A stretch of DNA of 64,000 bases from a virus. The stretch lies in IMG/VR virus record IMGVR_UViG_3300025264_002028, positions 39,240 to 103,239 of that record; one strand, given 5' to 3'. The position numbers and the translations under genes were made by a program. Below the pieces are notes generated by a model that saw only the letters and a program-made list of their open reading frames with translations, had not been told where the DNA came from and searched no databases. Positions 9,263 to 57,654 of this stretch are shown here, one piece after another (position 1 is the stretch's first letter; each line of letters opens with the position of its first letter).

Positions 9263-10828
9263 TTAAATTTGGCACACTTTATTTACAATAATTCCACCAT
9301 CTTCTTTCTTGGATGTCTGTCCCATTAGGATCACCATGTTACCTTCGACTAAAAATTCCTTGTTTTTTTGGTAGTCTTCTGGGAATATGATGACTGAATC
9401 TAGTACGCCAGAGCTATCTTCCACTGATAAAAATGCCATAAGTTGTCCCGGATTTTTACCCTTTTTAGTCTTATATTCTCTTAAGGAATTAATCTGCACA
9501 GCCACATTTACTTTGCCTTTCATGTACCCAAGAGCTACATCTTTACATACAGTATTTACAAGGTTGCTTTGAACATAGTCTGTTTTACCGCAAGTTAAGG
9601 CGCATCCCATGTATTTCTCTTCCGTATCGGCAATCCATATGGGGTCATCTTTGATATCATAAAATGGGTTTTCTAGGGAGTTTTTGATATCTACTACTGT
9701 AATCAGTCTTCTAGAATTAATCTTGAGATTATTGATCATATATCCTATACATTGAATAAGAGTCTCATGGTTGGAATAATTCTCTTTGATATATTTTTGT
9801 TCTCTTGCAGATAGTTGTTTCCAGCTGTCAAACTCATATAGCATTTCATTTCTGTTCTTGTTATTATTTTTACCATTAAAAGCCCCTACAGAAATCAAAG
9901 CCACCACAGCCTGTTTATTCAAAATGGAACATAAGTTATTTAAAATATCAAGCCAATTCCAATCATCTATAGTCTTGTTCAAAATCTCTTCTGTTTCAGG
10001 AAGAAACTTGTTTATCTTATCACATTCTACTTCGCCCACATGTTTAACATTATTGATACCAAAGTAAATTGTTTTTGAGACAGACTGAAAGTTTTTATAT
10101 AGATGCTTCAAACGGGGAGGATATACTTCAATATCATTCATTTTAGCATCAGTCACTAGCTCTTTAATTTCTTGTTTGGGGTCTGGTTTTCTTTTTGCAT
10201 GATTAAGGTAAGTCTTAAAAAATCTCACGGGACGATAGCACTTACAGTATGCACTCCAATAGGCATTGATAGCATAGCTAACAGCGTGGGACTTGTTGAA
10301 AGCATAACGATTGGATTTTTCAATCCATGAAAAAATCTCTTCAGCGACTGCCGTAGTAACAGTGCCTTTATTTTTTGAGCCTTCTAGAAAAGACTTCTTG
10401 ACTTCTGTCATCAAGCCAGCTTTCTTTTTTCCGATAGCCTTACGTAATGAGTCGGCATCCTTTAGACTAAAACCTGCCAGTTCTTGAGCTATCATCATGG
10501 ACTGCTCTTGATAAACAAGCACCCCATATGTTTCTTCTAGGATGCGTTCTAAAGATTCATGTGGATATGTTACAGGATCAGTTTTGGATTTTCTATCTAC
10601 ATAATGTTGCGTCATAGACTTATCATCCGTAAAAGCTTTAAGACAGCCGGGACGGATTAGTGAAATAAGAGCGGCTAGTTCTTGAATATTTCGGGGGGCT
10701 ACCCTTCTAGCCCATGAACGTCCGAGTTGCGACTCTAGCTGAAATACTCCCTTTGTCCTACCATCACATATGAGATCCCACACCCTATCATCGTGAAAAT
10801 CGTTCATGTTAAACGTAAAATTCGCCAT
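9263..10828 (-). CDS. dnaE: DNA polymerase III alpha, C-terminal half (split DnaE)
   Basis: The 521-residue product begins exactly where the N-terminal half (11740-13287) ends in the DnaE alignment. It has DLICDGRTKGVFQLESQLG, fingers sequence YPHESLERILEETYGVLVYQEQ, GFSLKDADSLRKAIGKK and NRYAFNKSHAVSYAIN. A C-terminal OB fold (about 440-521) includes GVLDSVIIFPEDYQKN. The catalytic aspartates lie on the other subunit, so the two chains must assemble. Start ATG 10828 has AAGG 9 bases upstream; ATG 10807 is also possible. It overlaps the exonuclease gene by 20 bases. Confidence 0.9.
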   Translation of the reverse strand: MANFTFNMNDFHDDRVWDLICDGRTKGVFQLESQLGRSWARRVAPRNIQELAALISLIRPGCLKAFTDDKSMTQHYVDRKSKTDPVTYPHESLERILEETYGVLVYQEQSMMIAQELAGFSLKDADSLRKAIGKKKAGLMTEVKKSFLEGSKNKGTVTTAVAEEIFSWIEKSNRYAFNKSHAVSYAINAYWSAYCKCYRPVRFFKTYLNHAKRKPDPKQEIKELVTDAKMNDIEVYPPRLKHLYKNFQSVSKTIYFGINNVKHVGEVECDKINKFLPETEEILNKTIDDWNWLDILNNLCSILNKQAVVALISVGAFNGKNNNKNRNEMLYEFDSWKQLSAREQKYIKENYSNHETLIQCIGYMINNLKINSRRLITVVDIKNSLENPFYDIKDDPIWIADTEEKYMGCALTCGKTDYVQSNLVNTVCKDVALGYMKGKVNVAVQINSLREYKTKKGKNPGQLMAFLSVEDSSGVLDSVIIFPEDYQKNKEFLVEGNMVILMGQTSKKEDGGIIVNKVCQI

Positions 10829-11498
10829 TTGCAAAAGCCTTTTCAAATTTGGTTTTTTCTGCAAGCTTTCTTTGGAACTTCAAAAATTTAATTAAAATGT
10901 TAGCTGTATCCTTAACATCCTGAAGAGCATCGTGAGCTTTCTCTTTTGATTCTTCTGGGAAGCCAAAATATTCACGGAGGTAATCCATGTTTAAGGATTT
11001 TACATCTTTATTGTTTTCCGTCCATGAAAAAACCATGTCCATCAAATCAAGTTTAAAGATAGGATTAAAAAGTTTTTGTCTACCCTTAGTGTCGGTTGGC
11101 CCATGCTCTTCACACATTCGATGCACTATAGGCAAATCAAATCCAATAATATTATATCCGGCGGCTATTGGCGCAGTGTAACTAGATTTTCTGAAATTAT
11201 ATTTGTCACAGAACTGTCCAAATTTTTTCCAAACTGTCTTAGGGAGAGGTGCTTTCGCTAGTTTGTCCCTTGTCTTATGCGTAATTGTTAAAGCTTCATC
11301 TTCAAGCGGATCAACACCTGCCGCCACAGCCTTTTCCTCATCTACTATTGGCCTCATCTCACTATTAAAAACACCTCCGGGTTGAAGGGTTAATTTTCTA
11401 GCATGGATGGCAATTGCTGCTATCTGAGTAGGTTGCGTCATCAGTGGATTACGACTACCAGTTTCAAAATCGAAGACAATAATATCTCTATAGTTCAT
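10809..11498 (-). CDS. DnaQ-like 3'-5' exonuclease (proofreading)
   Basis: This 229-residue protein has the three DEDDh motifs: IVFDFETGSRNP (Exo I, about residues 7-18), YNIIGFDLPIVHRM (Exo II, about 111-124) and HDALQDVKDTANIL (Exo III, about 189-202). The expected role is proofreading for the split polymerase, since the gene lies between the two dnaE halves. It overlaps the small gene upstream by one base and dnaE-C by 20 bases. In most bacteria dnaQ is unlinked to dnaE, or the exonuclease is built into PolC, so this placement is unusual. Confidence 0.9.
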   Translation of the reverse strand: MNYRDIIVFDFETGSRNPLMTQPTQIAAIAIHARKLTLQPGGVFNSEMRPIVDEEKAVAAGVDPLEDEALTITHKTRDKLAKAPLPKTVWKKFGQFCDKYNFRKSSYTAPIAAGYNIIGFDLPIVHRMCEEHGPTDTKGRQKLFNPIFKLDLMDMVFSWTENNKDVKSLNMDYLREYFGFPEESKEKAHDALQDVKDTANILIKFLKFQRKLAEKTKFEKAFANGEFYV

Positions 11499-11737
11499 TA
11501 GGATGTCCCTTCTACAATTTCAAAGAATTTATCTAACGCATCATCAATATTTCTATATATTTTCGAGAACTTTACTTGTGAGCTACTTGCGTCTACTTGA
11601 TACATACCGTCTTTTCTATCTCTATACTCTGGGAGCATCTTTCTTAGGTCACACACTGAGATCTTATTATACTCTAGAGCGCACCCATAATAAATAACTG
11701 ATTTAAAGTCCTGCCTAAGGATGTTGTGGTCTCTCAT
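11498..11737 (-). CDS. Small hypothetical protein between polymerase genes
   Basis: This 79-residue protein begins MRDHNILRQDFKSVIYYGCA. I see no recognised motif. Its position, two bases after dnaE-N and overlapping the exonuclease start by one base, suggests co-translation with the polymerase subunits. A subunit-bridging role is speculative. Confidence 0.6.
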   Translation of the reverse strand: MRDHNILRQDFKSVIYYGCALEYNKISVCDLRKMLPEYRDRKDGMYQVDASSSQVKFSKIYRNIDDALDKFFEIVEGTS

Positions 11738-11739
11738 GT

Positions 11740-13287
11740 CTACTCCTTAATTTCCATAATTTTACTTAATAGATCAATACCTAATATATCAAACTTAACA
11801 TGTCCCTGACTTTCCAAGTCGCCCATTTCAAATGCAGCTATCATATTGCCGCTTTTATCCTGTGTCATAGGACAAATAGAATTCAGGCGATCCTTAGAAA
11901 TAATGACACCAGCAGCGTGTTTACCCATAGATTTGTTTGTACCCTCTATTCGTATGGCTTGTTCAAAAAGTGGCGCTAAGGAGCCTTCTAGGGCTCCCTC
12001 GTTGATCTTACACCACTTTCTAAGATTGTCTCCTTCGTTTAACAATGCCCATTTGATAATGGACCTTTCTTCCATACTTTCCAGCTGATCAGAAATATCT
12101 GCTTCGTTAGGAATACCCTTGGTGATCTCATTCATTTCAGCAAATGAAACGGCGTCATGCATTCTTAGTACTTCCTTAAGGGCTGCTCTTCCTTGTAGTC
12201 TACCAAATGTGATCATCTGAGACACTTTCTCTTCGCCATACTTTCTTTTAATATAATCTATTACTTCTTCTCGGTGTTCAGCTGGTACATCAATATCAAT
12301 ATCAGGTAGCGATATATATTCTTCGGTGTTTCTGCCTTCGTTATAGAATCTTTCAAAAATCAAATTATATTCAATAGGATCTACGTTAGTAATTCCTATA
12401 AGGTAGGATATTAAACAGCCAGCTGCTGATCCTCGACCGGGACCAGCGAGCCAACCCTCTGATTCAATATGTCTAATGATATCTTGTACAATAAGAAAAT
12501 ATCCTGAAAGATCTGCGCCAAATATGACATCTAGTTCCTTCTTTATTCTATCTACGTAGGCCTGTTTAGCCTGATCTGTTTTTACTTTACCTTGTGGAAT
12601 TAATAAACGTTTCCACCCTTTTCTACATAACTCTGTTAAATAATCGTTTTCTTCCATACCATCTGGACATACAAATTTAGGAAGCATCGGCTTCCTTAAG
12701 ATATCATATTCTTCACAGAGGTCAACTACTTGGTTCACTTTTTTGATTTCATTTGCATCAATACCCATACTTTCAAAGTCATCAGGAGAGGGGAGATAAA
12801 ATTCATCTGAATCAAAGAAGCGTCTGTCAGCCCCTTCTAGTTTCTTTTCTACTTTAGATAGAGTGGTTTTCATCCCAGAGCATAGTAATATTCTTTGTAG
12901 AATAGCATCTTCTTTCTGGGCATAATAGATTTCTCTTTCTCGTAGTGGTGAATCTAGTCGATACAGATTATCCTTTTTAGTCATCTTCTCTAATGTCGTA
13001 TTAAAATTGTCTGTACCTATGGTTCCGGTTAGCTCTATCAGATCAAACCAGCCCGCTTTGTTTTTTGCTAAGAGACTAAAGTCGCCAAAATCACATCCTA
13101 TAATTGGTTTAATATCCTCGGCTTGACACGCTTTATAAAAATTTACGGCGCCCGACAGTGATTTATAGTCAGTAATAGCGCACGCTTTATATCCATACTC
13201 CTTACATTTAGATACGATTTCATCAGGCTTACAAAAACCCCGAAGAAGACTGTAGTGCGTGTGTATACAGAGAGGAGCCCAGTTCAC
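11740..13287 (-). CDS. dnaE: DNA polymerase III alpha, N-terminal half with PHP and palm
   Basis: This 515-residue protein carries the PHP domain (CIHTHYSLLRG, residues 7-17; ACAITDY) and the palm with GPGRGSAAG (282-290). LPDIDIDV supplies D331 and D333, and VKFDILG supplies D500. These correspond to the three catalytic aspartates of DnaE. The chain stops 15 residues after D500, before the fingers, which are encoded at 9263-10828. The start is GTG at 13287 with GAGGA 8 bases upstream. The split falls in a loop and nothing essential appears lost. Confidence 0.92.
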   Translation of the reverse strand: MNWAPLCIHTHYSLLRGFCKPDEIVSKCKEYGYKACAITDYKSLSGAVNFYKACQAEDIKPIIGCDFGDFSLLAKNKAGWFDLIELTGTIGTDNFNTTLEKMTKKDNLYRLDSPLREREIYYAQKEDAILQRILLCSGMKTTLSKVEKKLEGADRRFFDSDEFYLPSPDDFESMGIDANEIKKVNQVVDLCEEYDILRKPMLPKFVCPDGMEENDYLTELCRKGWKRLLIPQGKVKTDQAKQAYVDRIKKELDVIFGADLSGYFLIVQDIIRHIESEGWLAGPGRGSAAGCLISYLIGITNVDPIEYNLIFERFYNEGRNTEEYISLPDIDIDVPAEHREEVIDYIKRKYGEEKVSQMITFGRLQGRAALKEVLRMHDAVSFAEMNEITKGIPNEADISDQLESMEERSIIKWALLNEGDNLRKWCKINEGALEGSLAPLFEQAIRIEGTNKSMGKHAAGVIISKDRLNSICPMTQDKSGNMIAAFEMGDLESQGHVKFDILGIDLLSKIMEIKE

Positions 13288-27158: not shown

Positions 27159-28427
27159 TCAAACCAGCTCTGTCATGGGATCTCGGTGATCTAGAAGATA
27201 CTGAGGTCGTCCACCTGTGTCGATAACCGTTGTGTCTCTAGGATCAATTCCAAGATTATAATAAATCGTACTAGTAATTTCCTGAAAATGAACTGGGCGC
27301 TCGACAGCGTGTTCACCAAGACGATTTGTTTCGCCAATCGTTTGACCAAGCTTCATACCGCCACCAGCCAATAGAGCGCAACTAACTTGTGGCCAGTGAT
27401 CTCGGCCAGCACCCTTATTAATCTTGGGTGTACGACCAAACTCGCCCCATACCACAACAGTCACATCATCAAGCATCCCTCTTTCATCCAGATCCTCAAC
27501 CAATGCGCTGACACACTGATCAAGCTTACCACCATGATCTCTAACGAGATCAAAGTTAGCGCCATGACTATCCCATCTACCATAAGAAAGGCTCACAGAA
27601 CGCACTCCTACCTCAACCAAACGGCGTGCCATGAGGACGTGTTCATTAACAGTAGGAGCACCGTCATACTGATACTTAAAAGGCTTACCATCTCCATAAC
27701 GTTCACGGATTTTAGGGTCCTCCTGACTTAAATCCAGAGCGTCTACAAGTTTACTAGAAGTAAGTACATCAAAAGCCTCATCAATGAAAACATCTCCTTC
27801 AGGCTTAATATTACCAAGGCCTGTTAGCAATTCTTTTCTAGATTGTAGCCTATCTTTAGTAATACCATTAAGGGTGAGGTCAGACATCATCTCGCCATTA
27901 GGTTTAAAAGGTCTATGGGAGATACCGAGATAGCCCTCACTACCAGACTCAGACCACGGGCTATGTTTGGTTTTAGCTGCCAGACCAATAGTGGCTGGAA
28001 CTGATACGTCTACGGGACCTTGAATCTTTGAAGCAACCGATCCAATACTAGGATAGCCAACTCCAACGATCTTTTCATTTCGTCCCCATCCGCTCATACA
28101 TTGATAGCCGTCATGACCACCAGCCGAACCGATCACTGAACGAATAGCAACAAACTTATCCATCATAGAGGCGATCTTAGGAAAACTTTCTCCAATCTGG
28201 ATACCGGGTACTGACGTATCGATAGGCTGGAATTCGCCTCTAATTTCTGCGGGAGCATCTGTTTTAATGTCCCACATGTCTTGATGCGGAGGACCTCCTC
28301 CTAAAAATATATTAATAACAGCTTTGTGTTGGGTGCCGTTTTGTTGTTGTGCCTGTAAAATATTAGGCAAAGACAACATACCAAAACCGCCCACCGATAA
28401 GAATCCTCTTCTTGATAGTCTAAACAT
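27159..28427 (-). CDS. DUF1501 family Tat-exported protein (divergent copy)
   Basis: This 422-residue protein begins with a twin-arginine signal (SRRGFLSVGGFGMLSLP). It carries the DUF1501 core: NIFLGGGPPHQDMWDIK, SYGRWDSHGANFD, VVVWGEFGRTPKIN and GRDHWPQVS. DUF1501 proteins belong to the alkaline-phosphatase/sulfatase-like superfamily and are abundant in Planctomycetes; their activity is not established. The expected location is periplasm or cell surface. It starts 13 bases after the second DUF1501 gene and is clearly different from the other two copies. Confidence 0.9.
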   Translation of the reverse strand: MFRLSRRGFLSVGGFGMLSLPNILQAQQQNGTQHKAVINIFLGGGPPHQDMWDIKTDAPAEIRGEFQPIDTSVPGIQIGESFPKIASMMDKFVAIRSVIGSAGGHDGYQCMSGWGRNEKIVGVGYPSIGSVASKIQGPVDVSVPATIGLAAKTKHSPWSESGSEGYLGISHRPFKPNGEMMSDLTLNGITKDRLQSRKELLTGLGNIKPEGDVFIDEAFDVLTSSKLVDALDLSQEDPKIRERYGDGKPFKYQYDGAPTVNEHVLMARRLVEVGVRSVSLSYGRWDSHGANFDLVRDHGGKLDQCVSALVEDLDERGMLDDVTVVVWGEFGRTPKINKGAGRDHWPQVSCALLAGGGMKLGQTIGETNRLGEHAVERPVHFQEITSTIYYNLGIDPRDTTVIDTGGRPQYLLDHRDPMTELV

Positions 28428-28440
28428 CTTAATCTCCTAA

Positions 28441-29691
28441 TCATAAAATTGATTGGGCTTCACCCTCTAACAAGTAACGCGGCCTTCCGCCATTATCCAC
28501 TTTCTGAATACTCATAGGAATATTAAAGTGGTCAAATAGTGTTGCGCACACATCCAACGGACCATATGGGTTTTCTTTAGGTGTATACGACTTATCAGCC
28601 TTACCTACAGTTCTTCCTAACTCATATTCTCCTCCAGCCATAAGCATAGGTGACATCGCGGGCCAGTGGTCGCGACCTGCGTTGCCATTAAGTTTAGTTC
28701 GGCCAAACTCTCCGGTGACCACCAGTAAAATCTTTTCATTTAATCCTTTTTCCCAGACATCCTGCAAGAAAGCCGCAATAGCCTGATCAACAGGAGGAAC
28801 TCTACCCTTAAGAGCATTAGAAATATTACCATGCATGTCCCAACCCCCGTAGTGCATCGTAATAAATTTTGTACCATACTCTGAAAGTCTACGTGCTAGT
28901 AACATTTGCTTTCCAATATCGGTATTACCATATGCATCTCTAGTTTTAGTTGGCTCTTTATCGATATTGAATGCCAGCTTAGCAGTGCCGAGAATAGTAT
29001 CATAAGCCTGTGTAGTATATTTACCTATGGAATTAGCTGCATTACTAACGATTTCATGCTGCTTATCCAAGGCCGCCAGTAATTCACCGCGCGACTTGAA
29101 TCTACCTATTTCTACTCTAGGACTGAGGTTGTCCTTGTTGGAAGGATCAAATGGTTTATACGCTCCACCTAACCATGAAGGTCCCTCTCCCGAAATACCA
29201 CCTTGTTTAATATAAGTTGGAATTCCCGTAGAAGTATTAGCTCCATAGATGGAAGAAACGATAGAGCCAAAACCCGGATATTTTGGGTTGGATGTTTGGG
29301 CTCGTTCGCCGTTGTAGTGACCCGTCATCATCCAGTGAGTTGCTTGACGATGAGATGAGTCACCGTGCGTAAAAGAATTAACAGTTACAATTTTATCTTT
29401 ATGTTTAAATGTTTGAAGCCAATCAGCCCCTAATGATATATTAGTAGCGCTGTCATATAACAACCCATTCACAGGTCTAAATTGATCAGGAACATTGAAA
29501 TCAGTGGGAGCATGAAACGTTTCAAATTGAGTGGGTCCACCACCCAGCCACAGCCATACTACTGATTTGTCTTTTAGAGCCAGCTCCTCTTCTTCCGATA
29601 ATGCTAAATCGGATAGACCTATCGTAGACATTCCAGCTCCGATACTTCCCATACGTAAAAAATCACGCCTATTAAAATAAAAATCTAACAT
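28441..29691 (-). CDS. DUF1501 family Tat-exported protein, duplicate A
   Basis: This 416-residue protein has a Tat signal (FNRRDFLRMGSIGAGMS) and DUF1501 motifs VWLWLGGGPTQFETFH, HYGGWDMHGNIS, VVTGEFGRTKLNG and GRDHWPAMSPM. A strong RBS (AGGAGG) precedes ATG 29691. It aligns without gaps to the copy at 51290-52540, about 36 differences in 416 by eye. It lies 12 bases after a putative virion protein gene and appears co-transcribed with ribonucleotide reductase. Host acquisition is likely, since such families typify PVC bacteria. Confidence 0.92.
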   Translation of the reverse strand: MLDFYFNRRDFLRMGSIGAGMSTIGLSDLALSEEEELALKDKSVVWLWLGGGPTQFETFHAPTDFNVPDQFRPVNGLLYDSATNISLGADWLQTFKHKDKIVTVNSFTHGDSSHRQATHWMMTGHYNGERAQTSNPKYPGFGSIVSSIYGANTSTGIPTYIKQGGISGEGPSWLGGAYKPFDPSNKDNLSPRVEIGRFKSRGELLAALDKQHEIVSNAANSIGKYTTQAYDTILGTAKLAFNIDKEPTKTRDAYGNTDIGKQMLLARRLSEYGTKFITMHYGGWDMHGNISNALKGRVPPVDQAIAAFLQDVWEKGLNEKILLVVTGEFGRTKLNGNAGRDHWPAMSPMLMAGGEYELGRTVGKADKSYTPKENPYGPLDVCATLFDHFNIPMSIQKVDNGGRPRYLLEGEAQSIL

Positions 29692-38316: not shown

Positions 38317-39372
38317 TCAAATACCACCCAGTAACTCATTAGCCGAATTTTTCCACGAAAATTTTACAGCCGTATTGATGCCTGATGTATTAGGTGATAA
38401 GGAGCCCTCATTTTTTTTGTGATATATTGATCTCATATGTTCTATGGTTTGGTCTTTTTGATTTTCAGATATTTCCGCCCAAAAACCTCTGTCACCGTGA
38501 AACCAAACGCCATCATAGGCGGTTTCTAGGTTATCAATATTTATCAAATGGGCATTTTCTGTGGTACAAAATTCCGTGTGACCGGAGTAATTGGTAGCTA
38601 TAACGTGTTTACCGCAACTCATCATTTCAAGTAATTCTAAGTTCCAGCCCTCCGCTCTGGCGGGAAAAATACCACAATCTGTTTGTGTCATAATATTATA
38701 CACATCTTTTTGTGTTTTTTGACGGGGAATGACGCGGATTTTGTCTCCGAGAGGAGACGATTTGTATGTATCAATCCATTTTTGATTATCAACATTAGGA
38801 AATGGGTTATCGCACATCATCCACAATTCCACATTATCGTTATAGTTAAATGCTTCATTAAAATAATCCACCAAAACATCATGTCCCTTTCTAACTTCCC
38901 ATTTTCCACAATTAAAAAAAATAGTCTGTTGTCGGGAAGATGGTTTTTCCTTAAAAATATTTCTATCAACACCCAAAGGCACAACGTGAATATTGTCACC
39001 GTTAAAACTTGTATTTTGAGCAACAATTTCCTTGGCCCACCTAGAACAAACAAATATTTTATCACAGTGTAACATACTGGCAACTTCAGTAGGACTAAAT
39101 TTAGTTAATTCAAAAACGGGAAAGCCAACATGCACCCCTTTACCTACATGATGATGTAGCTCATGCTGATGCCATAATCGCACAGAAGGAGAAGACGTGC
39201 TAACCGATTGTTGGTTACTAAGGCATTTTTCTACTATTGCCATATCGGGCATTTGTTCTGGTTGCCCAATGGGATACAGGGCAACACCATTATTTTTGTG
39301 TAGCTCTTTCATAATGTTATAGCCAGCAATACCATATCCCAAATTATTAATTGGGGCTGTTAAATTTATCAT
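38317..39372 (-). CDS. Glycosyltransferase family 1 (GT-B)
   Basis: This 351-residue protein begins MINLTAPINNLGYGIAGYNI. It has IFFNCGKWEVRKGHDVLVDY (about 160) and the donor-binding signature GIFPARAEGWNLELLEMMSCGK (about 225), with FCTTENAHLI. It opens the second glycan cassette and overlaps the cytidylyltransferase gene by 26 bases. The acceptor is unknown. Confidence 0.88.
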   Translation of the reverse strand: MINLTAPINNLGYGIAGYNIMKELHKNNGVALYPIGQPEQMPDMAIVEKCLSNQQSVSTSSPSVRLWHQHELHHHVGKGVHVGFPVFELTKFSPTEVASMLHCDKIFVCSRWAKEIVAQNTSFNGDNIHVVPLGVDRNIFKEKPSSRQQTIFFNCGKWEVRKGHDVLVDYFNEAFNYNDNVELWMMCDNPFPNVDNQKWIDTYKSSPLGDKIRVIPRQKTQKDVYNIMTQTDCGIFPARAEGWNLELLEMMSCGKHVIATNYSGHTEFCTTENAHLINIDNLETAYDGVWFHGDRGFWAEISENQKDQTIEHMRSIYHKKNEGSLSPNTSGINTAVKFSWKNSANELLGGI

Positions 39373-45027: not shown

Positions 45028-46254
45028 CTATTTTTTTCCCCAACCCTCTCGTAATACACGTAAGGCATTACCCCCTAGTATGTGTTCCATCTGTTTTTCC
45101 GTGTACCCTAACGCGCATAAATAACTCGTAAGTCGAGGCATTTCTGACATATCTACAATTTCGTCTGGAGGATCAGTAAACCCATCCAAGTCACTACCTA
45201 TTCCTACTACTTCTATTCCACCTACATTTATCATATGATTAATATTATTTTCTATATGCTTTAATCCTAATCCACTGTGCGAATTAGATAAATAATAAGT
45301 CATCAGTATTACACCAATAACCCCTCCATTATCAGCAATCCATTTAATTTCTTTATTGGTTAGGTTGATAGGGTCACGGTTAATATCAAAGGAGGCCATG
45401 TGACTAGCTATAATACAATTCTTTTTGCGATGGTGCTTGGCGATATCCATAACCTTAGCTCTGGCACTGGGCGTACAGTGTGTGATGTCTATCAGCATCC
45501 CCAACTCCAGCATTCTTTCTACTACCTTTTCGCCTATGGATGTCAACCCTTTATTCATATCCCAACTGCCAGTTACTTTACGCCAGTCAAGCATCTTGCT
45601 AGAATATTCTGGATAAGGAAACACGGGATAAGCCACATGGTTAGGATAGAAATGAGCCAAAGTGAGATAGGCCACACCCCGATTGAAAAGGTATACCAGA
45701 TTAGATAATAATTCTTTTTCAACTGAATCGGCACACGCTCCATCTTCCACGGTTTTTCCGCCCTCTATACCATTAAGAGAATGGGCTCCTTCCACAGAAT
45801 GCACAACACACATATCTCCAGCCTCAAGACCTTGGTTCAATGTTGAAACAGAATCAGACAAACATACTTTTCTAGAAGGCTTCTTCTTGTTATATGAAAT
45901 AATCTGACGTTCCATTTCATCTAACATAAAATTTGTAGCATCAAAATAGGGAGGATCTACGATGGCGCGTCGTACACTGGGGAATATTCTAAAGAGCCAC
46001 CTTATAAGGGAGATTTCTTTAATCCACTCTTGTTCTAAAATATAAGCAGTAGATAGTATTACATCTACACCACCCTTGTCCATCTTGGGAAACGTAACTC
46101 GATTACTAAGTGGCCAAAATTTCTTGTCAAACATTCTAGATAGCCAATTTCTTTTGGATGAGTCTAGACTGATTTCCAAAATAATAGCCTTGAGGGCTGG
46201 ATGCGTATGTAGATCTACAAGCGTAGATTCTTTATGTAGATTTTGCCAGTTCAT
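45028..46254 (-). CDS. Renal-dipeptidase-like M19 metallopeptidase
   Basis: This 408-residue protein has LVDLHTHPALKA (metal site, about 13-24), HSVEGAHSLNG (bridging Glu), MLIDITHCTPSARAKV and IASHMASFDINRDP (metal His and substrate Arg), and VVGIGSDLDGF (catalytic Asp). All expected positions of a family M19 dipeptidase are present. There is no signal peptide, so it appears cytoplasmic. ATG 46254 is used, one base after the upstream stop; GTG 46263 is possible. Such an enzyme is unusual in a phage and may be host-derived. Confidence 0.85.
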   Translation of the reverse strand: MNWQNLHKESTLVDLHTHPALKAIILEISLDSSKRNWLSRMFDKKFWPLSNRVTFPKMDKGGVDVILSTAYILEQEWIKEISLIRWLFRIFPSVRRAIVDPPYFDATNFMLDEMERQIISYNKKKPSRKVCLSDSVSTLNQGLEAGDMCVVHSVEGAHSLNGIEGGKTVEDGACADSVEKELLSNLVYLFNRGVAYLTLAHFYPNHVAYPVFPYPEYSSKMLDWRKVTGSWDMNKGLTSIGEKVVERMLELGMLIDITHCTPSARAKVMDIAKHHRKKNCIIASHMASFDINRDPINLTNKEIKWIADNGGVIGVILMTYYLSNSHSGLGLKHIENNINHMINVGGIEVVGIGSDLDGFTDPPDEIVDMSEMPRLTSYLCALGYTEKQMEHILGGNALRVLREGWGKK

Positions 46255-46255
46255 A

Positions 46256-46684
46256 TCAATCACTGAATAAGATATTTAAGTTACCCCGAACAGTTGTTTC
46301 AACATCTTCCAAATGATCATCAGACATTGGATATAGAAAGGGAGAAACCTCGGCTCGCACCTCCGTGGGAGCGTCAGGAATCCATTCCAAATCTTTTACG
46401 GTAAGAACCACAGAAGCTCCCTTAGATTTAAAGTCGTGCCCTTCGATTTCATTTACAGACGTAATAGATACATGTACATCATCAGTGTATTTAGGGTTCC
46501 ATACCTTACCGTCTTTATTCCACAGCGGAAGACTGCCCCTCCATTCGTTCTGAGTGGGACCAAGAATTTCACTGACATATGGTACACCGCTAGGCATTAA
46601 TCCTAAAACGTTTATTTCAAATTCCTGATGATGAATACCAGAAGGCGGCACCCACTGCACATGTATCTCTGGATATTTTCTCAC
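46256..46684 (-). CDS. Hypothetical protein (GTG start)
   Basis: This 142-residue, beta-rich protein contains HVQWVPPSGIHHQEFEINVL and VTVKDLEWIPDAP-like sequence. The start is GTG 46684, with AAAGG six bases upstream formed by the last codons of the preceding gene. It may be a structural or adhesin-type protein; no family recognised. Confidence 0.55.
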   Translation of the reverse strand: MRKYPEIHVQWVPPSGIHHQEFEINVLGLMPSGVPYVSEILGPTQNEWRGSLPLWNKDGKVWNPKYTDDVHVSITSVNEIEGHDFKSKGASVVLTVKDLEWIPDAPTEVRAEVSPFLYPMSDDHLEDVETTVRGNLNILFSD

Positions 46685-47291: not shown

Positions 47292-47963
47292 TCAGATTCC
47301 TTTTAGTAAGTGCTGTTTAACATTATTCCACAGTACGTTTGCTAGAACTACACCAGCATCGTTATCAGAAGCATAATGAACTCCCTGTAAAACTCTCGCA
47401 TAACCCGCTAGTAATCCCATCCTGTAGAACTCAGGTGCATGTTCTGGGTATATATCGCTCAGTATAGAAGCCACCAGAGCACCATAGGCAGCATGACCAG
47501 AAGGATAAGCGGGAGTTTGATGAGTATCAGTATTAATAATATCTAGAGGGATATTAAAAATTTTAGCCAGCTGATAAGGACGTGGTCGTGAATACTGCCA
47601 TTTTAATTGAATGGCGACAATTTCTAAGATATCGTTAGCTTTCTTAAATATATTATGAGGAAAAGAAAGGTTGTGTTTCTTTAAGAATGGCAGAAATAGA
47701 TCGATGGGATCTTTATCCACGAGCTTTATAAGATCTATATCTAATTTTGTACGATTACTCGTAGCCTCAGATACGTTTTTAAGCTCATTTCTGGTGATAT
47801 CACTATCGTTTTGAGGAGGGGCTGGAAGGATATTTTTCCAGTCAATAGTGACAAGTTGAGATACACTTTTACGCAACAACCTACGGTAATGTGCGCTAGG
47901 TGGATAAGTGTATTTAATATTATTTATGTAGCCGCTTTCGGCGAGTAGGATCTGTTCTTCCAT
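47292..47963 (-). CDS. PAP2/vanadium-haloperoxidase-type phosphatase
   Basis: This 223-residue protein has the three PAP2 motifs: KWQYSRPRPY (KxxxxxxRP, about 123-132), AYPSGHAAYG (PSGH, about 157-166) and ARVLQGVHYASDNDAG (R..H..D, about 197-212). There are no obvious membrane helices, so it resembles soluble PAP2 or haloperoxidase-like enzymes. It could remove phosphate from lipid or sugar carriers. It overlaps the upstream zinc-ribbon gene by 44 bases. Confidence 0.85.
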   Translation of the reverse strand: MEEQILLAESGYINNIKYTYPPSAHYRRLLRKSVSQLVTIDWKNILPAPPQNDSDITRNELKNVSEATSNRTKLDIDLIKLVDKDPIDLFLPFLKKHNLSFPHNIFKKANDILEIVAIQLKWQYSRPRPYQLAKIFNIPLDIINTDTHQTPAYPSGHAAYGALVASILSDIYPEHAPEFYRMGLLAGYARVLQGVHYASDNDAGVVLANVLWNNVKQHLLKGI

Positions 47964-51289: not shown

Positions 51290-52540
51290 CTAAAGAATTA
51301 CCTCAGCTTCACCTTCTAACAAATAACGTGGCCTCCCGCCATTATCCACTTTCTGAATACTCATAGGAATATTAAAGTGGTCAAATAGTGTTGCACACAC
51401 ATCCAGTGGCCCATATGGGTTTTCTTTAGGTGTATACGACTTATCTGCCGTACCAATTGTTCTCCCTAGCTCATATTCCCCACCAGCCATAAGCATAGGT
51501 GACATTGCGGGCCAGTGATCTCGTCCAGCATTTCCATTAAGTTTGGTTCTGCCAAATTCTCCAGTAACTACCAAAAGAATCTTTTCATTGAGACCCCGGT
51601 CCCACACATCCTGTAAAAAAGCCGCAACAGCTTGATCAACAGGAGGAACTCTACCTTTAAGGGCATTAGAAATATTCCCGTGCATATCCCACCCACCATA
51701 GTGCATAGTAACAAATTTAGTTCCATGTTCTGCTAGGCGTCGTGCAAGCAGCATTTGTTTACCAATATCAGTATTGCCATATGCGTCTCTAATTTTAGTG
51801 GGCTCCTTGTCTATGTCAAATGCCAGTTTAGCAGTACCAAGTATGGTATCATATGCTTGCACAGTATATTTTCCTATAGAAGTAGCCGCATTACTAACGA
51901 TTTCATGCTGCTTATCCAAAGCTGCTAGTAATTCACCACGCGATTTAAATCTATCCACCTTAACTCGCGGGCTAAGATTATCTTTATTAGAAGGATCAAA
52001 AGGTTTATATGCGCCACCTAACCATGATGGTCCTTCTCCAGAGATACCACCCTGCTTAATATAGGTTGGAATTCCAGTAGAAGTATTAGCACCATAGATA
52101 GAGGAAATAATAGAACCAAAACCCGGATACTTGGGATTAGAAGTTTGTGCTCGTTCTCCATTGTAGTGACCCGTCATCATCCAGTGAGTTGCTTGACGAT
52201 GAGATGAATCTCCATGAGTGAAGGAATTAACACTAACTAATTTATCTTTATGTTTAAATGTTTCAAACCAGTCAGCCCCAAAAGAAAGATTAGTGTCGGG
52301 ATCATATAGAAGGCCGTTTACAGGTCTAAATTGATCAGGAACATTGAAATCGGTGGGGGCATGGAAAGTTTCAAACTGAGTAGGACCCCCTCCAAGCCAT
52401 AGCCATATTACAGACTTATCCTTAAGCGCCAGCTCCTCCTCTTCGGCCATAGCTAAATCAGAAAGACCCATAGCTGTCATGCCCGATCCAATACTACCAA
52501 TCCTAAGAAAATCACGTCTGTTAAAATTGATATCTAACAT
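51290..52540 (-). CDS. DUF1501 family Tat-exported protein, duplicate B
   Basis: This 416-residue protein has a Tat signal (FNRRDFLRIGSIGSGMT) and the same DUF1501 motifs as duplicate A, with no gaps between them. Differences cluster in the signal region and around residues 79-95 and 192-196. RBS GGGAG lies 9 bases before ATG 52540. It follows a secreted serine protease by 17 bases. Retention of both copies with mostly conservative changes suggests selection on both; that is inference. Confidence 0.92.
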   Translation of the reverse strand: MLDINFNRRDFLRIGSIGSGMTAMGLSDLAMAEEEELALKDKSVIWLWLGGGPTQFETFHAPTDFNVPDQFRPVNGLLYDPDTNLSFGADWFETFKHKDKLVSVNSFTHGDSSHRQATHWMMTGHYNGERAQTSNPKYPGFGSIISSIYGANTSTGIPTYIKQGGISGEGPSWLGGAYKPFDPSNKDNLSPRVKVDRFKSRGELLAALDKQHEIVSNAATSIGKYTVQAYDTILGTAKLAFDIDKEPTKIRDAYGNTDIGKQMLLARRLAEHGTKFVTMHYGGWDMHGNISNALKGRVPPVDQAVAAFLQDVWDRGLNEKILLVVTGEFGRTKLNGNAGRDHWPAMSPMLMAGGEYELGRTIGTADKSYTPKENPYGPLDVCATLFDHFNIPMSIQKVDNGGRPRYLLEGEAEVIL

Positions 52541-52557
52541 CGCACTATCTCCCGATT

Positions 52558-53472
52558 TTAATATATGAGTGTAGGAAATTTAATAGCATCCGGTGTGAAG
52601 CTTTTTTGATCACTACTAGACTTAGATTTAGGTCCCTCAACTGGTAATGATAAAATTTCTTCCATGTCGGGCACTTCTTTATTCATATCTATGGCCCACA
52701 AAATATCATGTTTCGTTGCCCATACTCGCATTCGTCGTACCGGTACGATAAGATTAAAAGTTTCGCCCGCCCCTCTTACAAGCATTCCCATGTATTGTCC
52801 AGCCTTATCGCCTGATCTTTCTGACAGAAAAACACCACCACCGGAACTACCGGGAAATGCTGTAACTGTAGTTTGATCAAAAACGGTACCATCCCCACTA
52901 CCTAAATTTAGCACACGTCCTACCTGAGAAACAATACCGCGTGTCATAGAATTAGAACCGGTTTGCCCCAATAATGATCCCACATGATACAGTTCAGCCC
53001 CAATAGAGACAGGCTTACCCTTTCCATTATAAAATTCAGCATTACTTTTAATAAAACTTCTTTTTCTAACCATAAGTAACGCAAGATCTTCTCCATCAGT
53101 AGCATCGCTGTATTTAATGACCTTGGTATCCATTTTTAGCTCACCTACCCGTCTACCATTTTCTACCAACTCTTGTACAATTTGTGCGTCTTTAAATTCA
53201 ACCACCTTTTTTGGTTGACCATTTTCTATGACATTTCGTACAGAGCGGAGGCCACTAATAACATGCGCTGCCGTCCATACAAAATTAATTTGTTCAGTTT
53301 CATTACCCTCAGTTTTTACAGCTCTAGTAATAATAACTCCCGATCCTTCACTAGAGGAGGCTTTTACAGTAACGGAAATATCTTGTAGCTTTTTATAAAG
53401 CTCCTGTGCATTAGTAGTATTAACACACGCAACACACACCAACAAAATTGCCAAAGTCATTCGTCTAATCAT
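52558..53472 (-). CDS. Secreted trypsin-like serine protease
   Basis: This 304-residue protein has a signal peptide (MTLAILLVCVACVNTTNA). The catalytic triad is in order: FVWTAAHVI (His70), DGEDLALL (Asp129) and FPGSSGGGVF (Ser210), as in the DegP/trypsin clan. No PDZ domain is present; the C-terminus (about 265-304) is a Ser/Lys-rich tail. It should act outside the cytoplasm. It shares a transcription unit with the DUF1501 duplicate. Substrate unknown. Confidence 0.88.
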   Translation of the reverse strand: MIRRMTLAILLVCVACVNTTNAQELYKKLQDISVTVKASSSEGSGVIITRAVKTEGNETEQINFVWTAAHVISGLRSVRNVIENGQPKKVVEFKDAQIVQELVENGRRVGELKMDTKVIKYSDATDGEDLALLMVRKRSFIKSNAEFYNGKGKPVSIGAELYHVGSLLGQTGSNSMTRGIVSQVGRVLNLGSGDGTVFDQTTVTAFPGSSGGGVFLSERSGDKAGQYMGMLVRGAGETFNLIVPVRRMRVWATKHDILWAIDMNKEVPDMEEILSLPVEGPKSKSSSDQKSFTPDAIKFPTLIY

Positions 53473-55040: not shown

Positions 55041-55066
55041 CGTATCACTCCTTACATTGTAAGCAG

Positions 55067-55324
55067 TGGAGGTGGGGGGAATTGAACCCCCGTCCAGTAT
55101 AAACTCAAATAACAACGTCTACATGTTTAAACTCACTCACGAAAAACGTAACTCTTCGTCCTAATTGGGTAACAAGGTCTAGGACAACCCCGCGCTACTA
55201 GGCAGCGAGTGCTAAGCTAGGCTCGGCAAGTAAAATTAGTTTAATCGATTTTTTAACTGGCCGTTCGATCAACCAGTACATGCAGTTATTACTCTTGTTC
55301 ATCTGTCGATCCCTTATCACCCCC
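55067..55324 (-). ncRNA. ssrA: Transfer-messenger RNA (tmRNA), tag AEPSLALAA
   Basis: This 258-base RNA has a tRNA-like domain: 5' GGGGGTG (55318-55324) pairs with 3' CACCTCC (55068-55074, one G-U), discriminator A at 55067, and a T-arm GGGGG-TTCAATT-CCCCC. The 5' GGGATCGACAG resembles the tmRNA GATTCGACGG. PK1 is visible: ACTGG/CCAGT with the loop TTGATCG pairing CGATTAA. The tag frame starts at GCC (55225-55227), reads AEPSLALAA and ends TAGTAG. A single downstream pseudoknot (GGGT/ACCC with GTCCTA/TAGGAC) follows. TGCATG and AATAAC pair with the 3' side as in helix 2. CCA is not encoded. It rescues stalled ribosomes and tags proteins for proteolysis. Confidence 0.92.
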
Positions 55325-55699
55325 GTTTAACTCATTTAAAATTGATTTATCTTTCTTCGCTTGTGCTATTCCTTTGTTGGTGAGTCTAAATGAAAATTCA
55401 CCATCCTCTCCTATCAAAGTTTCTACATAACCCTCTTTACACAATTCTTCTAAGGTGGCTTCAACAGTACCACTCTCATGATCTAATGCATAGGCACAAC
55501 TATCTACTATATGCTCTTCAATTACATAAAAAACCTTATCAGAATGAGGGCTGTCGTAATAATATTGTTTTCTCTGTTTACAGAGTTGTTTAAGGGCTTC
55601 AGCGCTCTTTTGGGGCGTCGTGAATGCTCCTAATATATCCATATCATAAAATTCGTCGCCAATAAGCTCGTGTCTAGTTAAAACATATATTTGAGTCAC
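55289..55699 (-). CDS. Hypothetical protein overlapping tmRNA (GTG start)
   Basis: This 136-residue protein begins MTQIYVLTRHELIGDEFYDM. It has a winged-helix-like C-terminal part (VEATLEELCKEGYVETLIGE; RLTNKGIAQAKKD). GTG 55699 lies 8 bases after GGAG and overlaps the upstream stop (GTGA). Its last 12 codons (including stop) are also the first 36 bases of the tmRNA. No firm family. Confidence 0.65.
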   Translation of the reverse strand: MTQIYVLTRHELIGDEFYDMDILGAFTTPQKSAEALKQLCKQRKQYYYDSPHSDKVFYVIEEHIVDSCAYALDHESGTVEATLEELCKEGYVETLIGEDGEFSFRLTNKGIAQAKKDKSILNELNGGDKGSTDEQE

Positions 55700-56556: not shown

Positions 56557-57654
56557 TTATAAGCACTCCGCAAAATTAAATAATAGATTTAACTTTTCGT
56601 CAAAAATACTATAGGGAATGTCTCGATATGTACATACTGATGGTTCAGCTCTATCTGCTATTATGGAAGCGGCTGACGCCAGAGGAAACGCTGTCGCCAT
56701 TTGCATTGCCGAAAACTGTGAATTACAATGAATTACTTTTTCATTCGACCAATCATCTACGGAAACTTTAATTATTACCAAATCTTTTTGGGGTGGACAG
56801 CTATTTTTGAATACATCAATTAAAGATTTATCATCGAGCCCTGACTCATGGACGAGGAAATTAACAATTTGATGGTGAGAGGGATACCGAAGAGTTTTAT
56901 AGCAACAATTTTGTATCCCTTTCATCTTCATAGAGGAGACCGTGTGTGATGTGCCTCCGCTGGTATAAAAAGCTTCTAGAGTCCCTATATCGCTGGATAT
57001 TGGAAATTGATACCCTTCCATGCCACGTACAACAGTTTCCTGTCCATCCACTAGCACGAGACAGCTATCTCTGTATTCGTTAATCAGCCCATCATACGAC
57101 CATGTACAGCTGTACTTAAGGGTATTGTTGGGGCACTGAGGAAGGCCACCAACCATCATAGTGACGGTGTGAGGGACCTCTCCTTCTCTTTCCATGTATT
57201 CTTGGCACATATTTTCTGCCATAATATTGACCCATCCGGGGGCTAAGCCAAGATCAGTCATAATTGAACATCGCATATAGCGACGACCCATTTCATTTAT
57301 GCCTCCACTAATTCCTTCATTACCACCCAGATCGCAATATGCAACATTCCTACATACGCAGTGATAGGCCAGCTGTGTATTTTGGTGGTAGGGAAGCGCT
57401 GAAATAACAACATCTACATCCTTGTCTATAAATGAATAGTCTGGATATTTTTTATTCACCACATATTTTTCTATGGAAGATGATCCATTAATAAATCGCT
57501 TCCATACAGAAGATTTCATATCAATTAAAGCTTCACACTCATTAAGATTATCAGCATCCACATCTGCTATAACCAAGTCATCAAATCCCAATTTATGCAT
57601 TGCCCAAGTAGTAGCTCTCCCCATCTGACCAACGCCAATTATTGCAGCTTTCAT
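56557..57654 (-). CDS. Saccharopine-dehydrogenase-like NAD(P) oxidoreductase
   Basis: This 365-residue protein has a Rossmann start (KAAIIGVGQMGRATTWAM, about 2-19), DVVISALPYHQNTQLAYHCV, MTDLGLAPGWVNIMA and YTSGGTSHTVSSMK with KTLRYPSHH. It fits the saccharopine dehydrogenase / L-lysine dehydrogenase superfamily, which also includes carboxynorspermidine dehydrogenases of polyamine synthesis. Near speD it may take part in a polyamine or lysine step. It is one base from dCMP deaminase. Rare in phages. Confidence 0.82.
   Translation of the reverse strand: MKAAIIGVGQMGRATTWAMHKLGFDDLVIADVDADNLNECEALIDMKSSVWKRFINGSSSIEKYVVNKKYPDYSFIDKDVDVVISALPYHQNTQLAYHCVCRNVAYCDLGGNEGISGGINEMGRRYMRCSIMTDLGLAPGWVNIMAENMCQEYMEREGEVPHTVTMMVGGLPQCPNNTLKYSCTWSYDGLINEYRDSCLVLVDGQETVVRGMEGYQFPISSDIGTLEAFYTSGGTSHTVSSMKMKGIQNCCYKTLRYPSHHQIVNFLVHESGLDDKSLIDVFKNSCPPQKDLVIIKVSVDDWSNEKVIHCNSQFSAMQMATAFPLASAASIIADRAEPSVCTYRDIPYSIFDEKLNLLFNFAECL

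Follow-up and report, generated by a model that had tools for sequence, protein, structure and literature searches.

A compact one-piece tmRNA, probably functional, encoded by a phage contig

The tmRNA gene and its surroundings

The window analysed here, a 64,000-nucleotide stretch of IMG/VR virus record IMGVR_UViG_3300025264_002028 (positions 39,240 to 103,239), comes from an uncultured marine phage and carries a one-piece tmRNA gene (ssrA) of 259 nt on its minus strand at 55324..55066. ARAGORN classed it as a standard (non-permuted) tmRNA with the tag AEPSLALAA and two stops, and a search of the 64 kb against 4227 Rfam families returned an RF00023 match at 55324-55064 with 97.1 bits (E 1.2e-36), covering model positions 1-374, the full length of the model. 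The RF00023 gathering score is 47 bits, so the match lies far over threshold in the covariance-model search by which an earlier note, made from the letters alone, had proposed checking its claim of a compact phage-encoded tmRNA with this tag; the agreement of ARAGORN and the placement in a 103 kb virus contig likewise bear that claim out. The note had put the RNA at 55067-55324, which is the right locus but stops one base short at the 3' end (55066) and omits the strand. No other tmRNA occurs in the 103,239-base record. A permuted two-piece tmRNA (RF04321) was considered and rejected, scoring 22.2 bits against a cut-off of 47 where ARAGORN gives the standard form; in gene order the 3' tRNA part does not come before the 5' part, as it does in the permuted layout.

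The gene is flanked upstream by tRNA-Arg(UCU) and dCMP deaminase and downstream by ThyX. An upstream open reading frame of 136 aa with weak winged-helix resemblance (55289..55699, minus strand), possibly a genuine gene as far as its stop and possibly not, shares 36 nt with the 5' end of the tmRNA. Promoter and terminator scans gave matches at chance level, and smpB was found neither in this record, which is an incomplete virus contig, nor in seven others searched. The 103 kb record carries phage replication and rII genes. In related contigs the tmRNA likewise occupies the region downstream of rII, though at another spot, directly following a homologue of window 47292-47963.

Matches of the helicase, polymerase, RNR and ThyX to cultured phages are distant only, and a T4-like identity was dropped because the polymerase is of the PolIII-alpha type. 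This DNA polymerase III alpha is split in two genes (window 9263-13287, minus strand), a PHP+NTPase half at 11740-13287 and a finger half at 9263-10864, between which lies a gene for a DnaQ-like exonuclease (10809-11498); no intein was found in the split polymerase. The order is kept in all 30 of the 30 related loci holding both halves, and the gap between the first half and the exonuclease is usually 220-245 nt, reaching 1-2.5 kb in L019, L052 and L055. Among relatives not identical to the window the exonuclease is 70-93% conserved, as against mostly ~60% for the polymerase halves. Cargo unusual for a phage is also present, namely three DUF1501 proteins, an M19 membrane dipeptidase, a trypsin-like protease and a saccharopine-dehydrogenase-like protein (window 27159-29691, 51290-52540, 45028-46263, 52558-53472 and 56557-57654); a search found no viral relative of the last of these proteins, which neighbours the tmRNA gene.

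Structure and conservation of the RNA

We number the RNA from window 55324 (position 1), and every feature below lies on the minus strand. The acceptor stem is formed by the 5' strand GGGGGUG (55318..55324, RNA 1-7), pairing with RNA 251-257, and the 3' strand CACCUCC, which is followed by the discriminator A258 and by C259 (55066..55074). G3 stands opposite U255 and constitutes the G3-U70 alanine identity pair. Because C259 is followed by UG in the genome (genomic ACTG), CCA is not encoded. The T-arm, GGGGG-UUCAAUU-CCCCC, occupies 55075..55091 (RNA 234-250), and helix 2 is built from a 5' strand at 55278..55304 (RNA 21-47) and a 3' strand at 55096..55126 (RNA 199-229). PK1, with stems of 5 and 8 bp (55241..55277, RNA 48-84), lies upstream of the tag frame, which starts at resume codon GCC (RNA 98) and extends over 55201..55227 (RNA 98-124). 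Together with the tandem TAG TAG stops (55195..55200, RNA 125-130) the frame reads GCC GAG CCT AGC TTA GCA CTC GCT GCC TAG TAG. The A at −4 of the resume codon, equivalent to A86 of E. coli, is preceded by U at −5. The first stop codon spans the loop of the 6-bp helix 5 (55193..55207, RNA 118-132), and PK2, with stems of 5 and 7 bp, follows at 55158..55191 (RNA 134-167).

Between PK2 and the closing of helix 2 only ~30 nt are left, and where longer relatives have PK3-PK4 there is a short hairpin (55141..55157) of 6 bp or a competing 5 bp, neither of which has covariation support in a seven-sequence alignment. All the elements that had been picked out by eye in the earlier note (acceptor stem, T-arm, tag frame with double stop, PK1 before the tag and one pseudoknot after it) were recovered, and its statement that the PK2-PK4 run is reduced to one holds against the ~340-nt homologues described below. 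Compared with the standard bacterial tmRNA (RF00023), the window RNA has all features of the tRNA-like domain, including the acceptor G3-U70 pair and discriminator A, as well as PK1, a resume codon and tag frame, a stop in helix 5, and PK2, and its Rfam score is twice the gathering score. It differs in being viral, in encoding no CCA, and in having PK2 and the short hairpin only in place of the downstream PK3 and PK4, which are usual though not obligatory for the RF00023 type. At 259 nt it is indeed shorter than the usual ~350-400 nt, but not outside the range known for tmRNAs, 230-400 nt (PMC3968760), among which the number of pseudoknots varies (PMC1168896, PMC3968760).

Covariation was assessed over 66 pairs in an alignment of seven phage tmRNAs, in which standard pairs fill 86.8% of pair cells. 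Both-sided changes occur in 20 of the 66 pairs against a shuffled mean of 9.1, a count reached in none of 500 shuffles, and sliding the partners by 1-3 columns lowers it to 3-5. PK1 alone has both-sided changes at 5 of its 13 pairs. The G3-U pair is kept in 7/7 sequences despite flips at acceptor pairs 4 and 5, and the A at −4 is conserved in every aligned relative. The E value of 1.2e-36, together with covariation beyond all 500 shuffles, excludes a chance origin, and we regard the window tmRNA as real and probably functional. The tag is informative too: in L281, a relative encoding the same peptide, 6 of the 27 tag nucleotides differ and all six differences are synonymous, an outcome matched by chance in 45 of 200,000 random sets. 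From these comparisons the tag peptide is judged to be under purifying selection.

Relatives and the shortening of the gene

A tmRNA over the Rfam cut-off is carried by five contigs related through their DnaB-type helicase, four of them (L082-L085) with a form of ~342 nt and tag VEENFALAA and one (L086) with a form of ~340 nt and tag AEPSFAIAA. The other 39 of 44 related records have none and are mostly fragments, so the gene may be dispensable in the clade. By way of the downstream neighbour protein we found a 281-nt tmRNA in IMG/VR contig 3300025300_001994 (L269) with a tag identical to that of the window, and a degenerate tag pattern search yielded further AEPS-tag tmRNAs, including the 338-nt form of L281 (AEPSLALAA) and ~340-nt forms with AEPSFAIAA in L280, L283, L284 and L286. 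In L282 (6374-6689) and L285 (497-812) a permuted tmRNA was seen that carries the tag AEPCFALAA and overlaps a predicted tRNA-Trp.

The ~340-nt relatives, all from marine phage contigs, are homologous to the window RNA in the shared parts, have the same or similar 9-aa tags and likewise encode no CCA, but they possess ~80 nt extra downstream of PK2. The resemblance to L269 extends to identical tag nucleotides, a near-identical PK2 and related flanking genes, whereas L269 is 22 nt longer, mostly after PK2. Between these two short forms acceptor pairs 4 and 5 and one T-arm pair swap from G-C in the window to C-G, and compensatory changes affect two pairs of PK1. In a maximum-likelihood tree from ungapped columns the 259-nt and 281-nt forms are sisters, the ~340-nt AEPS forms adjoin them and the VEENFALAA forms lie outside; the split setting the two short forms apart from the rest has support 93. 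This sister relationship suggests that a single event in their lineage probably removed the PK3-PK4 region, with the polarity hanging on how the tree is rooted.

Short one-piece tmRNAs, 243-275 nt overall, also occur in unrelated phage contigs: marine forms of 243-253 nt with tag ANDNVALSLAA or ANDNVALTLAA, a 267-nt Streptomyces phage type with tag ANSKFAFALAA (L144, L147), a tag that the annotations of Streptomyces phages Anedea and Riptide also give, and a 268-nt form with tag ANTNFALAA. Like the window RNA, the Streptomyces and marine types are in one piece and shortened downstream of the tag, but their sequences and tags differ and the shortening is apparently independent. The existence of short tmRNAs in unrelated phages suggests that shortening probably occurred several times. 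A broader reading, that phages have repeatedly and independently evolved minimal PK1+PK2 one-piece tmRNAs, each with its own tag, that replace host trans-translation in infected cells while depending on host SmpB, is one we put forward tentatively and consider rather doubtful. Among the matches listed, one-piece tmRNAs of similarly compact size (257-271 nt), here with CCA encoded, are also found in bacterial MAG contigs (L170, L173, L191) assigned to Moraxellaceae (L170, 257 nt), Deltaproteobacteria and Rhodocyclales; these contigs may be chromosomal or belong to mobile elements.

The Pelagibacter phage Mosig, whose group has a permuted tmRNA described in PMC9004378, offers a further comparison. 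Its annotated SsrA (L088, 3943-4281) is permuted, carries the tag GEDNFALAA and adjoins a late-transcription accessory gene and thyX. Both are marine phage tmRNAs with thyX one or two genes downstream, but that of Mosig is circularly permuted and of the alphaproteobacterial type, whereas the window gene is in one piece. Mosig and Melnitz also have a riboswitch or another Rfam element close to the tmRNA, and none was found near the window gene.

Proposed function and significance

A tmRNA frees stalled ribosomes and labels their incomplete proteins for degradation. In the known system, G3-U and the discriminator A direct alanylation, and EF-Tu and SmpB are bound through the tRNA-like domain (PMC3968760, PMC2481249); the A at −4 sets the frame, A86 being essential in E. 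coli (PMC2481249); and ClpX recognises tags that end in LAA (PMC3968760). All required elements are present in the window RNA, and it therefore most likely works in the phage as a tmRNA whose pseudoknots are PK1 and PK2 alone, taking part in ordinary trans-translation through host proteins. Function depends on PK1, whereas PK2-PK4 can be replaced (PMC3968760), so the loss of PK3-PK4 need not abolish function, though it could lower activity. The flanking ThyX, dCMP deaminase and tRNA-Arg suggest transcription within an early-type gene cluster. Host RNase P and 3' nucleases would then trim the RNA, a host enzyme would supply CCA, host AlaRS would charge it with alanine, and host SmpB and EF-Tu would bring it to stalled ribosomes. 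Ribosomes would be freed from truncated mRNAs there and AEPSLALAA, whose LAA end suits recognition by ClpXP, would be added; the most likely benefit is a ribosome pool kept active in infection, with host tmRNA supplemented or replaced.

The two roles raised in the earlier note, rescue on phage mRNA and recoding of host degradation tagging, are both plausible, but recoding, like action as a decoy, has less in its favour than ordinary trans-translation. The phage tag might serve mainly to recode the fate of tagged proteins, for instance by letting them escape a host adaptor, rather than to rescue ribosomes, and AEPSLALAA does lack an obvious SspB-type motif (AANDENY) while retaining the LAA end (for the role of which see PMC3968760); 9-aa tags ending in ALAA are, however, common in bacteria and the tag may just match a host-like type, and we consider this reading unlikely. 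An RNA that acted as a decoy, damping trans-translation in the host by binding SmpB, AlaRS or EF-Tu, would have a precedent in mycobacteriophage DS6A, whose tmRNA form without a tag reportedly inhibits endogenous tmRNA (PMC11915505), and could accommodate the reduced pseudoknot set. For a decoy, however, the tag frame, stops, helix 5 and A at −4 would be superfluous, and their retention, with a tag under purifying selection, makes such a role very improbable.

We attach equally little weight to the possibility that the gene is a neutral passenger, a decaying copy of a transduced host gene now shedding its pseudoknots. Its patchy presence in related contigs, its varying position among them and its shortened 3' half are what such decay would look like, but the acceptor-stem, PK1 and T-arm compensation between the two short forms indicates that selection has continued inside phages, the tag differences from L281 are synonymous only, and the tmRNA family is spread over several phage contigs.

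The earlier note had called phage tmRNA uncommon; it is less rare than that, having been reported in 402 of 18,146 phage genomes, or 2.3% (PMC9004378), and 79 unique phage sequences are held in the 2025 tmRNA database (PMC11915505). What is new is thus not a tmRNA in a phage but the trimming of one member in a family of phage tmRNAs that otherwise mostly measure ~340 nt. The phage repertoire gains a compact one-piece tmRNA and no new kind of system. The 259-, 281- and ~340-nt forms make up a natural series of which part of a tmRNA phages can discard, and the window RNA is a small natural tmRNA that could be used for studies of structure or activity.
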